A stretch of 33,104 nucleotides of DNA. Origin: an uncultured Oscillospiraceae bacterium (GTDB lineage Bacteria; Bacillota; Clostridia; Oscillospirales; Oscillospiraceae). The translations under genes were made by a program, and so were the position numbers. The first letter of the stretch is position 1; each line of letters opens with the position of its first letter. The stretch is from assembly GCA_947629775.1 (NCBI GenBank), contig CANRFA010000015.1, forward strand, positions 1 through 33,104, written 5' to 3'. The notes beneath the pieces were generated by a model. The model searched no databases and was not told the origin of the DNA. It saw only the letters and a program-made list of their open reading frames with translations. Shown one piece after another: positions 18,086 through 23,239 of this stretch.

Positions 18086-20236
18086 ATGACGGATTACAGA
18101 ATCAGCGACGGGGTTCTGATCTCCTTCGAGACGAACGAGAGAGTGGCGGTATTTCCCTCCGGAATCCGTGCGGTGGGGACCAGCGTTCTCCTGAAGAGCC
18201 CGTACGTCCGAAAGGTCGTGATCCCCGAAGGAGTCGTGGAGATTCAGGATCATGCCTTCGGTTACTTTCGGACCTTCTCAAAAATGGAGGAGATCGTGCT
18301 GCCCGGGAGCCTGGAAACGATTGGGGACTTTGCTTTCTGCACCTGTGCCAGCCTGAAGTACATTACGCTTCCCCCGAACCTGAAGCACCTGGGGAGTAAG
18401 GCCTTTGTGGAGTCCGGCCTGGTGCGGGTGGAGATTCCGGAGTCCGTGGAGACCATCGGCCATGCCGTCTTCTGCGACTGTAAGGATCTGCTGGAAGTGG
18501 TTCTGCCGGGGCATCTGACCACGATTCCGGGCGGCCTGTTTTACGGATGCAGGTCTCTGGCCGAGGTGCGGATTCCGAAGGGCGTGACCGTCATCGAAGG
18601 CAAGGCTTTTGAGGGATGCGAACATCTGGAGAGGCTTACGCTTCCTCCGAAGCTGGAAGAGATCCAGCCTGGGGCCTTCCAGAAGTGCAGGCGGCTGAAG
18701 GCGATCCACTTTCCGGCGACGGTGAAGTCCTTCGGGATCGACATCCTCCTGGAGTGCGACAGTCTGGCGAGCGTCACGGTGGAGCCGGGCGGTTCGGATC
18801 TGTTCCGGATGGGCGATGTGATCGCCAGCGCATGTTACCTGCGGAGCGACCCCAATCGGACCGAACGGATCATGGCGGCCTTCCGCACGGACTATACCGC
18901 GTCCACCTGTGTTATTCCGGAGGGCGTTGCCGTCATCCCGGAGGCGCTGTTCCGCCTGTCCAAAACGCTGCGGACGCTGGAACTGCCGGATTCGCTCTTC
19001 TATCTGGCGGGACGCTGCTTTCAGAACTGCAGCCGGCTGCGCGATGTCCGTCTGCCGGACGGCATCGAGACACTGCCGGAGTTTGTCTTTGAAAACTGCG
19101 CGGGCCTGCGGTCGCTGCGCCTGCCGGCCCATCTGAAGACCATCGAGCGCAAGGCACTGCAGCGGATCTCCCTGGAGAAGCTGACGATTCCCGCCGAGGT
19201 GAAGGAGATCGGGAAGGACGCCTTTGCCAGGTCGTTCATCGGCCTGCTGGAGGTGGAGGGGGACCCGGACGCGCTGCCTCTGAAGAAGGCGGGGCTGGAC
19301 GTGGACCACATGAGGATGCGGGCGGACCGCCGCCCGCTCGAACGCTACCCGAAGAATCAGCAGGGCTGGGTCCTGAAGGACCGGACGGAGCGTCTGGCAA
19401 CTCTGCCGGAGGCCACCCGGGCGGATCTGCTGGACCATGTCCGGCGGCACCGGAAGGCGCTGTGGAGCGAGGGATACCGGAACCTCATCCTTTCGGAGGG
19501 GATGCTCACCGCCGGCGACATGAACTGGGCCCTGGAGAGCGCGAAGGGAAATCCCGAGCTGACGGCGAGGCTGCTGGTCTGGCAGAACGAGCTCCTCTCC
19601 CGGGAGCAGATGGAGCCCGCCGAAAGCAATCGCGCAAGCCGTCCGCTCCGGGAGCTCACCCGTCCGGAGTTCTCCCCGGCGCAGCTGCGGAAACTCTGGC
19701 CCACCACGAAGTTCGGGGACGGCTCCGAAGTGCTGCTGGAGTACCGGGGAACGGACAGAGAACTGCTCATCCCCGGGAAGCTGGGACGGGGCAGGGTGGA
19801 GGAGATCGGGAAGGACGCTCTGAATCCCGAGGCGGTTCCCCCGGAGGGGAAGGTGAAGTTCCGGGCCGGCTATGGGGAGATCACCCGCATCGAGCTGGAG
19901 GAGGGGATCCTGCGCATCGGACCCCGGGCCTTCGCCAATCTGACCCGGCTCGAAGAGGTGACGCTGCCCGATTCCCTGGAGCGGGTGGGGGATGGCGCCT
20001 TCCGCGGCTGCGTGTTTCTGCGGGAGATCACCATCCCGCCCAATGTGAAGCGGGTCTGCAGACTGGCGCTGGATGGCTGCTTCGATCTCCAGACCATCAC
20101 GGTCCAGAGCGGGAAGACGAAGCTGAGCCGCCTCTGGGAGGAGCATGCCCCCGGGGCCTGCGTGCTGAGAGGGCCGGATTCGGCCGCCCTTCGCAAATGG
20201 GCGGAGGAGAACGGCGTGGAGTTCAGATCGCTCTGA
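18086..20236 (+). CDS. Leucine-rich-repeat protein (BspA/LRR_5 type), predicted cytoplasmic
   Basis: A 716-residue protein built of BspA-type repeats of about 23 residues (for example LEEVTLPDSLERVGDGAFRG). The first block spans about 40-395. A non-repeat helical part spans about 400-530 (RADLLDHVRRHRKALWSEGY), then a lead-in with YRGTDRELLIPGKLGRG at about 550-570, and a second LRR block spans about 590-685. BspA repeats usually occur on exported adhesins, but this protein has no signal peptide or anchor, so it may act inside the cell as a binding scaffold. The ribosome site is poor: GGGAG lies 13 bases before the ATG, while a strong AAAGGAG (18032-18038) lies 47 bases upstream, separated by a small TCAGG/CCTGA stem. 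No earlier standard start codon exists in frame. No promoter was recognised in 17946-18085. Confidence 0.88.
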   Translation: MTDYRISDGVLISFETNERVAVFPSGIRAVGTSVLLKSPYVRKVVIPEGVVEIQDHAFGYFRTFSKMEEIVLPGSLETIGDFAFCTCASLKYITLPPNLKHLGSKAFVESGLVRVEIPESVETIGHAVFCDCKDLLEVVLPGHLTTIPGGLFYGCRSLAEVRIPKGVTVIEGKAFEGCEHLERLTLPPKLEEIQPGAFQKCRRLKAIHFPATVKSFGIDILLECDSLASVTVEPGGSDLFRMGDVIASACYLRSDPNRTERIMAAFRTDYTASTCVIPEGVAVIPEALFRLSKTLRTLELPDSLFYLAGRCFQNCSRLRDVRLPDGIETLPEFVFENCAGLRSLRLPAHLKTIERKALQRISLEKLTIPAEVKEIGKDAFARSFIGLLEVEGDPDALPLKKAGLDVDHMRMRADRRPLERYPKNQQGWVLKDRTERLATLPEATRADLLDHVRRHRKALWSEGYRNLILSEGMLTAGDMNWALESAKGNPELTARLLVWQNELLSREQMEPAESNRASRPLRELTRPEFSPAQLRKLWPTTKFGDGSEVLLEYRGTDRELLIPGKLGRGRVEEIGKDALNPEAVPPEGKVKFRAGYGEITRIELEEGILRIGPRAFANLTRLEEVTLPDSLERVGDGAFRGCVFLREITIPPNVKRVCRLALDGCFDLQTITVQSGKTKLSRLWEEHAPGACVLRGPDSAALRKWAEENGVEFRSL

Positions 20237-21743: not shown

Positions 21744-21824
21744 GTAAATTTCTCTTGACAGACCGTAAAACCTTGGCTTACAATACGGCCATCGAACCTG
21801 CTCAAATCGTAAATGAGAGTTTAC
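21744..21824. repeat. GTAAA-N6-TTKAC operator-like repeats around the fructan promoter
   Basis: GTAAA-N6-TTGAC at 21744-21759 overlaps the -35 box, and GTAAA-N6-TTTAC at 21809-21824 lies about 20-35 bases after the predicted transcription start. A third CGTAAA is at 21764-21769 between the boxes. Repressor sites in the -35 and early transcribed region would block initiation, which fits a LacI-type repressor. Confidence 0.55.
21755..21784 (+). promoter_or_regulatory. Promoter of the fructan operon
   Basis: -35 TTGACA (21755-21760, perfect), 18-base spacer, -10 TACAAT (21779-21784). Predicted start of transcription near 21791, about 290 bases before the ATPase start codon. Confidence 0.85.
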
Positions 21825-22081
21825 AAAGTGTAATCCTCCGGAAGGCTGTCCCCGCGTGGGAGGGTGCTTCCCGAGGCCCCGGCACGGAAATTCGGGCGGG
21901 TGGGTCCCGGCGAATCAGAAGCGGCGCTCCACATGCACAGAGACTGGCCGCGAGAAGAAAAGGAGGTCAACCATCCGTTTGCTCACGGTGCGGCAGCGTG
22001 GAGACCTGCCGCAATGCGGTCCATCCTTCCGGGATGGCGCGAGGCTGGCCGGGCGAAGGCCTGGCAGCCAGAGCAACCACT
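21791..22081 (+). promoter_or_regulatory. Long structured mRNA leader of the fructan operon
   Basis: No convincing gene lies here. The only strong ribosome site (AAAAGGAGG, 21958-21966) is followed by consecutive hairpins: CCGT/ACGG (21975-21988), TGCGGCAG/CTGCCGCA (21989-22013, 8 bp), CCATCC/GGATGG (22021-22037), and an 11-bp stem with one bulged G and loop GAAG (22043-22069). The ATPase ATG then comes at 22082 with no Shine-Dalgarno within 20 bases. The upstream half also folds (CGTG...CACG around 21855-21887). It matches no riboswitch class that I recognise. It could be a cis-regulatory RNA or fold that brings the ribosome site close to the ATG. Confidence 0.55.
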
Positions 22082-23239
22082 ATGTCAGAAGTCCTGCTGA
22101 AAAGCCTGAAGAAGGTCTACGAAGGCAACGTTACGGCGGTCCACGATGTAAACCTGAAGATCAAGGACAAGGAGTTCATCGTGCTGGTCGGTCCGTCCGG
22201 CTGCGGCAAGTCCACCACCCTTCGTATGGTGGCTGGCCTGGAGGATATCTCCGGCGGAGAACTGTACATCGACGGCAAGCTCTGCAACAACGTGGCACCC
22301 AAGGACCGGGATATCGCCATGGTCTTCCAGAGCTACGCCCTGTACCCCCACATGACGGTCTATGAGAACATGGCCTTCGCCCTCAAGCTCAAGAAGGTCC
22401 CCAAGCCGGAGATCGACAAGAAGGTGCGGGAGGTCGCGCAGATTCTGGACATCACCCAGTACCTCGAGCGCAAGCCCAAGGCCCTGTCCGGCGGCCAGCG
22501 GCAGCGTGTGGCCATTGGCCGCGCCATGGTCCGCGACCCCAAGGTGTTCCTCATGGACGAGCCCCTCTCCAACCTGGACGCCAAGCTCCGCAACCAGATG
22601 CGCGCGGAGATCATCAAGCTGCGCCACCGCATCAACACCACCTTCATGTACGTCACCCACGACCAGACCGAGGCCATGACCCTGGGCGACCGCATCGTGA
22701 TCATGAAGGACGGCTTTGTCAACCAGATCGGCAGCCCCGAGGATGTCTTCGACCGTCCTGTGAACCTCTTCGTGGCCGGCTTCATCGGCATGCCCGTCAT
22801 GAACTTCTTCGATCACTGCAAGCTGCTGCTGGAGAACGGCGTGTACTACGCCCAGATCCGCAACGCGAAGTTCCGCCTGGACGACTTCCAGCAGAAGGCC
22901 CTGAAGCAGAACGGCCAGAAGCCCTGCGACATCGTGGCCGGCATCCGTCCTCAGCACATCAGCGTGGGCTCCGGCCAGCTGGAAGCGCTGGTGGAGGTCA
23001 ACGAGATGCTGGGCAGCGAGGTCAACCTCCACACCCGCAGCGATGACGACGAAGTGGTCATGGTGATCCCCACCGTGGATCTGACCGTGGACGTCTCCAT
23101 GGGCTCCCGGGTGAAGTTCGACACCAAGCCCCGCCTGATTCAGCTCTTCGACAAGGAGTCCGGCAACAACCTGATCTGGTACGACAAGGCCTCCGCGGAC
23201 GCCTGTTCCCCGGTCTGCAAGGCCTATCCCTTCTCCTGA
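22082..23239 (+). CDS. ABC sugar importer ATPase (MsmX/UgpC type)
   Basis: A 385-residue ATPase that powers carbohydrate import. Walker A GPSGCGKST is at 37-45, the Q-loop Gln is at about 83, the signature LSGGQ at 135-139, Walker B FLMDE at 156-160, the D-loop is SNLD and the H-loop is VTHDQ. The C-terminal regulatory OB-type domain (about 240-385) identifies the MalK/MsmX/UgpC group. It is the first gene of the operon and is followed by two permeases. In many Firmicutes LplB/YtcP-type permeases borrow a distant MsmX-like ATPase, so a dedicated copy is notable. The ATG at 22082 fits the family start (MSEVLLKSLKKVY) although no ribosome site is adjacent. Codon use is narrow (AAG, GAC, ATC), suggesting strong expression. 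Confidence 0.96.
   Translation: MSEVLLKSLKKVYEGNVTAVHDVNLKIKDKEFIVLVGPSGCGKSTTLRMVAGLEDISGGELYIDGKLCNNVAPKDRDIAMVFQSYALYPHMTVYENMAFALKLKKVPKPEIDKKVREVAQILDITQYLERKPKALSGGQRQRVAIGRAMVRDPKVFLMDEPLSNLDAKLRNQMRAEIIKLRHRINTTFMYVTHDQTEAMTLGDRIVIMKDGFVNQIGSPEDVFDRPVNLFVAGFIGMPVMNFFDHCKLLLENGVYYAQIRNAKFRLDDFQQKALKQNGQKPCDIVAGIRPQHISVGSGQLEALVEVNEMLGSEVNLHTRSDDDEVVMVIPTVDLTVDVSMGSRVKFDTKPRLIQLFDKESGNNLIWYDKASADACSPVCKAYPFS

Follow-up and report, generated by a model that had tools for sequence, protein, structure and literature searches.

The leader of a malK-like gene in an uncultured Oscillospiraceae bacterium is a member of the known Rfam family malK-I, and its anatomy suggests that a pseudoknot closes up a split ribosome-binding site, a reading to which we assign a probability of about 0.57. 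In the window analysed here, which is the whole stretch of 33,104 nucleotides, exactly 115 nt and four hairpins lie between the GGAGG of the leader and the ATG of the gene at 22082. At the level of sequence, this distance, the pairing that could bridge it and the exchange of the RNA with proximal Shine-Dalgarno (SD) sequences are established by comparison across the family.

Identity and occurrence of the leader RNA

The features of the locus are as follows.

21755 to 21784, + strand: sigma-70-like promoter TTGACA-18-TACAAT (consensus match in 11 of 12 letters)
21791 to 21914, + strand: extra 5′ leader before the RNA in the window copy, between the promoter-like pair and the start of the Rfam match
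21915 to 22087, + strand: malK-I RNA, Rfam RF03069 (104.3 bits, gathering threshold 60.3, E = 9.7e-19)
21921 to 21951, + strand: hairpin 1 (GCGGC 21921-21925 with GCCGC 21947-21951)
21927 to 21932, + strand: CUCCAC of the hairpin 1 loop (pairing K with GUGGAG 21998-22003 is proposed)
21958 to 21966, + strand: distal Shine-Dalgarno sequence AAAAGGAGG (the sole strong SD; family-wide spacing)
21975 to 21988, + strand: hairpin A (stem of CCGU 21975-21978 and ACGG 21985-21988, loop containing the 5′ strand of P2)
21979 to 21984, + strand: 5′ strand of helix P2, UUGCUC (covariation)
21989 to 22013, + strand: hairpin 2a (Rfam alignment, covariation; holds GUGGAG 21998-22003)
22016 to 22040, + strand: hairpin 2b of the Rfam model (limits taken from the alignment)
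22043 to 22069, + strand: hairpin 2c of the Rfam model (limits taken from the alignment)
22071 to 22076, + strand: 3′ strand of helix P2, GAGCAA (5 nt before the ATG; covariation)
22082 to 23239, + strand: malK-like ABC transporter ATPase, UgpC type (PF00005 and NF008653 above cut-off)

The match to RF03069 is full-length (1-181 of 181 model positions) and ends just past the malK start codon. Since malK-I is already an Rfam family, with the type cis-regulatory, the locus is not a new class, and the view in the preliminary description that the leader belongs to no recognised class was wrong. The window copy resembles the family in its hairpins, in the malK-type gene downstream, which we take to be the feature behind the family name, and in the conserved AAAAGGAGGA, but its hairpin 1 is short. 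The family was reportedly first described by Weinberg et al. in 2017. A literature search by RNA name and RF03069 found no functional study of malK-I, and the accessible part of one paper includes the RNA as training data.

Six copies above the cut-off are present in this genome, one before each of six MalK paralogues (69-100% identity), and the next two MalK paralogues (51% and 50% identity) have no malK-I RNA. Matches were found in 130 of 300 genomes of the family and in 3 of 398 genomes of a phylum sample, both counts including this genome, and in 14 of 245 genomes of an order sample, two of the 14 lying in another family. The distribution thereby covers two bacterial families of one order and one family outside that order. 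The start codon is placed very regularly, with an ATG six bases before the match end in 215 of 218 loci and a GTG in one; the other two are broken copies. A MalK homologue follows in 202 of the 218 loci (blastp), and the remaining 16 comprise 12 short or cut reading frames, the two broken copies and two genes encoding Noc. At locus L156, the 5′ half of the RNA is followed by unrelated sequence (47.3 bits). At L271 (match 401-554 after reverse complementation), a GCGGCA stretch common to both marks where the leader passes into the Walker A region of malK, which is either a deletion or an assembly artefact. L156 was left out of the SD count, both L156 and L271 were left out of the pairing counts, and L142 was left out of the hairpin A and P2 count; the duplicates L220, L234, L249, L252, L254 and L258 and the contig G276:C131 were also set aside.

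Positions 21915-22085 fold with a minimum free energy of -75 kcal/mol. Among 200 shuffled sequences, 5 fold equally well (z = -2.25), so that the energy on its own is modest evidence. The strong evidence for a structured leader is the Rfam match together with the covariation described below.

Promoter and operon

The ATPase encoded behind the leader scores under the cut-off of the MalK equivalog NF008233. Its gene is followed by genes for two permeases, a likely binding protein, for which the Pfam match is under the curated cut-off, and a GH32 enzyme, from which fructans are presumed to be the substrate of the operon. A LacI-type regulator gene lies divergently on the opposite strand, and a BspA-type leucine-rich-repeat protein (PF13306) is encoded at 18086-20236, upstream of the regulator gene. 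Proximal SDs are seen in the window for lacI, the second permease gene and the binding-protein gene, the other starts being uncertain and uncounted.

The best promoter-like pair 5′ of the RNA consists of TTGACA (21755-21760) and TACAAT (21779-21784), with a spacer of 18 nt. Transcription is likely to start near 21791, as judged from this consensus match rather than from a mapped 5′ end, and the earlier proposal of a leader beginning at about 21791 fits it. An inverted repeat, GTAAA-TGAGAG-TTTAC at 21809-21824, lies directly 3′ of the promoter-like pair, beside the divergent LacI-type gene, and looks like an operator. The window copy would carry 124 nt of leader 5′ of the RNA (21791-21914); a good promoter-like pair is present in 70 of 210 loci, and in 45 of these no more than about 50 nt separate the start of the -10 box from the RNA. 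The malK frame of the window is open from 21755.

A Shine-Dalgarno sequence far from the start codon

No SD adjoins the malK ATG in the window. The preliminary description had reported this absence, together with a sole strong SD 115 nt upstream, and both the positions and the distance are confirmed. The same arrangement is found throughout the family. The gap between GGAGG and ATG is 104-124 nt in 147 of 149 loci (150 loci minus L156), with a median of 117 nt, and the other two gaps are 153 and 212 nt. No SD-like tetramer (GGAG, GAGG, AGGA or AAGG) is present 4-18 nt before the ATG in 129 of the 149 loci. Such a tetramer near the ATG in the other 20 counts against a split site; in all 20 it overlaps the P2 strand.

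The pseudoknot between the two sites

Hairpin A begins 8 nt after the SD. Bases in its loop pair with a strand that lies shortly ahead of the ATG (helix P2), and hairpin A and P2 together form an H-type pseudoknot. P2 is present in the printed structure line of RF03069, from which hairpin A and the pairing between the loops of hairpins 1 and 2a are missing; hairpin A is missing because such models cannot hold crossing pairs. The row of hairpins had been located before from the window alone: the CCGT/ACGG hairpin at 21975-21988 and hairpin 2a lie where they were placed, and the remaining pair of hairpins corresponds to 2b and 2c of RF03069.

Five base pairs of P2 form free of mismatches in 198 of 210 distinct sequences, whereas 300 partner swaps gave 49.9 on average and 64 at most. 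For hairpin A, the corresponding values are 207 of 210 sequences and, with partners swapped, a mean of 147.6 and a maximum of 157. In both tests, the best register was taken for real and swapped pairs alike, and the statistics ignore kinship. The 12 sequences in which a perfect five-pair P2 is not formed count against a split site. Among 67 dissimilar sequences, two-sided changes occur at every one of the five P2 pairs, and P2 and 2a together yield 111 cells with such changes, against 27.1 in shuffles; none of 500 shuffles scored as high, and versions slid out of register reached at most 15. This set consisted of 68 loci with a similarity score below 0.72, from which L146 was dropped; L012, L043 and L044 were kept regardless of score, L153, the only one over 215 nt, was left out, and L043 and L044, which are misaligned at the 3′ strand of P2, were scored there as gaps. 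P2 and 2a are thus upheld by covariation as elements of malK-I, which answers one refuting condition named in the preliminary description, a lack of conserved pairing in orthologous leaders.

P2 and the ATG are separated by 6-8 nt in 202 of 208 sequences, and the linker between the SD and hairpin A is 4-13 nt. When the span from hairpin A to P2 is left out, 10-20 nt remain between SD and ATG in the family and 14 nt in the window copy, in which the conserved structure accordingly shortens the spacing from 115 nt to 14 nt. Three observations on this structure count against a split site. Compensation between the lengths of the linker and of the P2-ATG gap is weak (r = -0.23, a value that ignores kinship). 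The spacing left in phage T4, 5 nt for gene 38 and 11 nt for gene 25, is shorter than the remainder here, in which a helix of some 9 bp adds to the 10-20 nt. In the minimum free energy fold of the window copy, a type of prediction without room for pseudoknots, some bases of the SD are paired.

The 2c hairpin has a GGAG tetraloop, like that of 2a, in 130 of the 178 loops located (of 210), and the window copy has GAAG. Family-wide, there are three GGAG elements (2a, 2c and the SD) to one CUCC.

Pairing between the loops of hairpins 1 and 2a

A second long-range pairing (K) is proposed between CUCCAC of hairpin 1 and GUGGAG of 2a. With the loop placed by alignment column alone, a core of four base pairs forms in 144 of 149 loci and all six pairs in 126 of 149. 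The pairing was found in 207 of 210 sequences when the loop was located by its CTCC-like letters, a count that is partly given by construction because those letters define the loop. K is nearly invariant and shows one compensatory event, CUCUAC with GUAGAG in L043 and L044, two genomes of one genus in another family, where both sides are changed and the SD is still GGAGG. The partner slid by -2 still pairs in 0.767 of cells, compared to 0.968 in register. Given the near-invariance and the single event, the case for K is weaker than that for P2.

The CUCC of hairpin 1 could by sequence also pair with the GGAG of the SD in 201 of 210 sequences; an alternating structure could thus exist, and the counts alone do not decide the matter. 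As a simple off-switch, the pairing of hairpin 1 with the SD is disfavoured, since the 2a loop changed along with hairpin 1 in L043 and L044, and since loci with a GGATG SD (L090, L105, L111 and L118) keep both CUCCAC and GUGGAG. A pattern scan of the genome contigs for 2a loops other than GTGGAG returned 43 stretches, none of them malK-I-like by inspection; the two that were run against Rfam, L158 and L164, had no match, and this blank result carries no weight as evidence.

Genes with and without the RNA

MalK homologues that lack the RNA served as a control. In 22 genomes no malK-I was found, and 10 of these have MalK homologues at E <= 1e-90 that are 45-67% identical. The control comprised 22 genes including L280 and L281 of this genome; the start of L321 was not located and the gene was not counted, the gene fragment L323 was left out, and the starts of L314, L316, L317 and L333, three of them non-ATG, were set by eye. 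An SD-like motif precedes the start in 21 of the 21 resolved genes, although weak in L317 and L329. The control genes may be paralogues instead of strict orthologues.

A second comparison is offered by noc. A malK-I-like RNA precedes noc at L043 (1501-1694, - strand) and L044 (1501-1696, + strand). The L044 product is Noc (TIGR04285, 341.4 bits, cut-off 315), and the L043 product is 95% identical to it. The RF03069 score is 68.7 bits for L043 and 47.8 bits, below the cut-off, for L044; hairpin A, P2, the SD and the ATG are in place in both, as is the loop pairing. Three RNA-less noc orthologues of the same family have AGGTG, presumably an SD-like motif complementary to the 16S anti-SD, or AGGTGGTGGAG before the ATG, and no AGGTG-like motif is present before the ATG of the two noc genes with the RNA. 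Under the uniform tetramer rule, only one of the three RNA-less orthologues counts as having a proximal SD. The noc case is moreover a single event in one genus, which counts against a split site. A search of the literature by the RNA name, and for nucleoid occlusion with riboswitch, found no mention of a link between malK-I and noc.

RNA-less relatives have the motif and genes behind the RNA mostly do not, so that a gene tends to have either the RNA or a proximal SD; the pattern is clear in malK and weaker in noc. The preliminary description had suggested that folding could bring the ribosome site and the ATG together, and this suggestion gains support from the covarying pseudoknot and from the exchange of RNA and proximal SD. 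The RNA-less relatives also lend indirect support to the idea that translation would require the structure.

Proposed mechanism and known systems

In the split-site reading, formation of the pseudoknot by hairpin A and P2 would loop out hairpins 2a, 2b and 2c. What would then separate the SD from the ATG is the helix, with its width, and 14 nt in the window copy or 10-20 nt across the family. A 30S subunit could then bind the SD and reach the ATG with the element left folded, so that a single 30S would contact both at the same time. In the unfolded state, the SD would be out of reach and the gene silent, and the fold would act as an on-switch. The knotted fold would thus make an SD at a distance of over 100 bases usable for initiation at the ATG, and may in itself constitute the switch. 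Less certainly, the pairing between the loops of hairpins 1 and 2a might keep the SD linker open, and some signal might shift the balance of folded and unfolded states.

Several systems resemble parts of this arrangement. The mRNAs of the E. coli polyamine modulon have shorter SD-start spacings than malK-I, and we know of no conserved RNA family that they form. Like malK-I, they have an unusually long SD-start spacing, which according to the accessible text is reduced by bending of the mRNA (PMC10917681). Phage T4 has split ribosome-binding sites in genes 38 and 25. Again as far as the available part of the source goes, structure brings SD and AUG closer there, with a spacing reduced from 22 to 5 nt in gene 38 and from 27 to 11 nt in gene 25 (PMC3014915). 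Structure between SD and AUG thus shortens an overlong spacing there as it would in malK-I, but the T4 spacings described in that part are 22-27 nt, against about 117 nt with four hairpins and a pseudoknot. E. coli thrS, another split ribosome-binding site, differs in having one hairpin of about 35 nt and in its translational control by a protein. The portion of the work on thrS that could be consulted describes two binding parts separated by a long hairpin, which stays folded while the ribosome accommodates it (PMC3936740).

A broader proposal, which is tentative and rather doubtful, is that malK-I is a portable ribosome-entry element, a compact double pseudoknot with its own SD that would present the next AUG to the 30S subunit. 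Any gene behind it, such as malK or noc, could then lose its own SD, translation would be all-or-none on folding, and the fold would read a general signal of the cell and not the transported sugar. A fructan-specific sensor is unlikely, given that six MalK paralogues of this genome lie behind the RNA, as does noc in two genomes that belong to another family.

Alternative explanations

Among the alternatives, the strongest is a standby site: the 30S subunit would first be held at the distal SD and would reach the ATG later, by sliding or by unfolding the RNA, with the fold tuning the rate rather than bridging the distance. It is modelled on tisB, which in the accessible text requires both a single-stranded site for ribosome loading about 100 nt upstream and an H-type pseudoknot, and in this resembles malK-I (PMC7708055); high rates are said, in the available part of a second source, to be possible from distant standby modules (PMC3936740). 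The same account of tisB places its pseudoknot at the 5′ end and describes a proximal RBS that exists and is sequestered (PMC7708055), whereas the malK-I pseudoknot spans the region from SD to ATG, and no SD-like tetramer stands near the ATG in 129 of 149 loci, those of the other 20 overlapping the P2 strand. In addition, sliding would not need the constancy of the 6-8 nt between P2 and the ATG. A standby site is unlikely.

Somewhat less likely again is a riboswitch, in which a ligand would stabilise or break the pseudoknot and so set translation, a scheme that would be compatible with a split site. Crossing pairings and conserved unpaired bases are usual in aptamers, and the unpaired A at 22042, between 2b and 2c, is invariant in 67 of 67 sequences; the Rfam type, cis-regulatory, is also in line with such a function. 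The downstream genes differ, however, and since malK and noc both occur behind the RNA, the transported sugar is not a signal that they could have in common.

Binding of a regulatory or ribosomal protein to the fold, with repression or activation of translation, seems improbable. Start-site pseudoknots of other mRNAs are bound by ribosomal proteins, S1 in the case of tisB and rpsO, as reported in the part of the source at hand (PMC7708055), but autoregulation by MalK would leave noc unexplained. Finally, a short leader peptide driven by the distal SD and coupled to malK, which would make sense of an SD far from the ATG and of the start codon found 3-13 nt after the SD in 31 of 149 loci, is hardly tenable, since no ATG, GTG or TTG lies in that interval in the other 118, no conserved short reading frame follows the SD, and the SD-ATG spacing occurs in all three phases (63, 46 and 40 loci).

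An in-frame extension of malK from the SD was rejected on account of an in-frame stop between SD and ATG in 78 of 149 loci, and inspection of the window copy for terminator-type attenuation showed no T run after the hairpins.

Significance

The anatomy of malK-I gives the family a concrete candidate function, in which the two halves of a ribosome-binding site more than 100 nt apart would be joined by a pseudoknot. If true, this would be, to our knowledge, by far the longest split site known. The SD-AUG geometry, together with the comparison to RNA-less genes, would remain new even if the crossing pairs are already annotated for malK-I, and noc allows the same gene to be compared in the presence and absence of the RNA. 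A split site would account for the absence of a normal SD before the genes that carry malK-I, and folding of the initiation region would then itself be a means of controlling expression.
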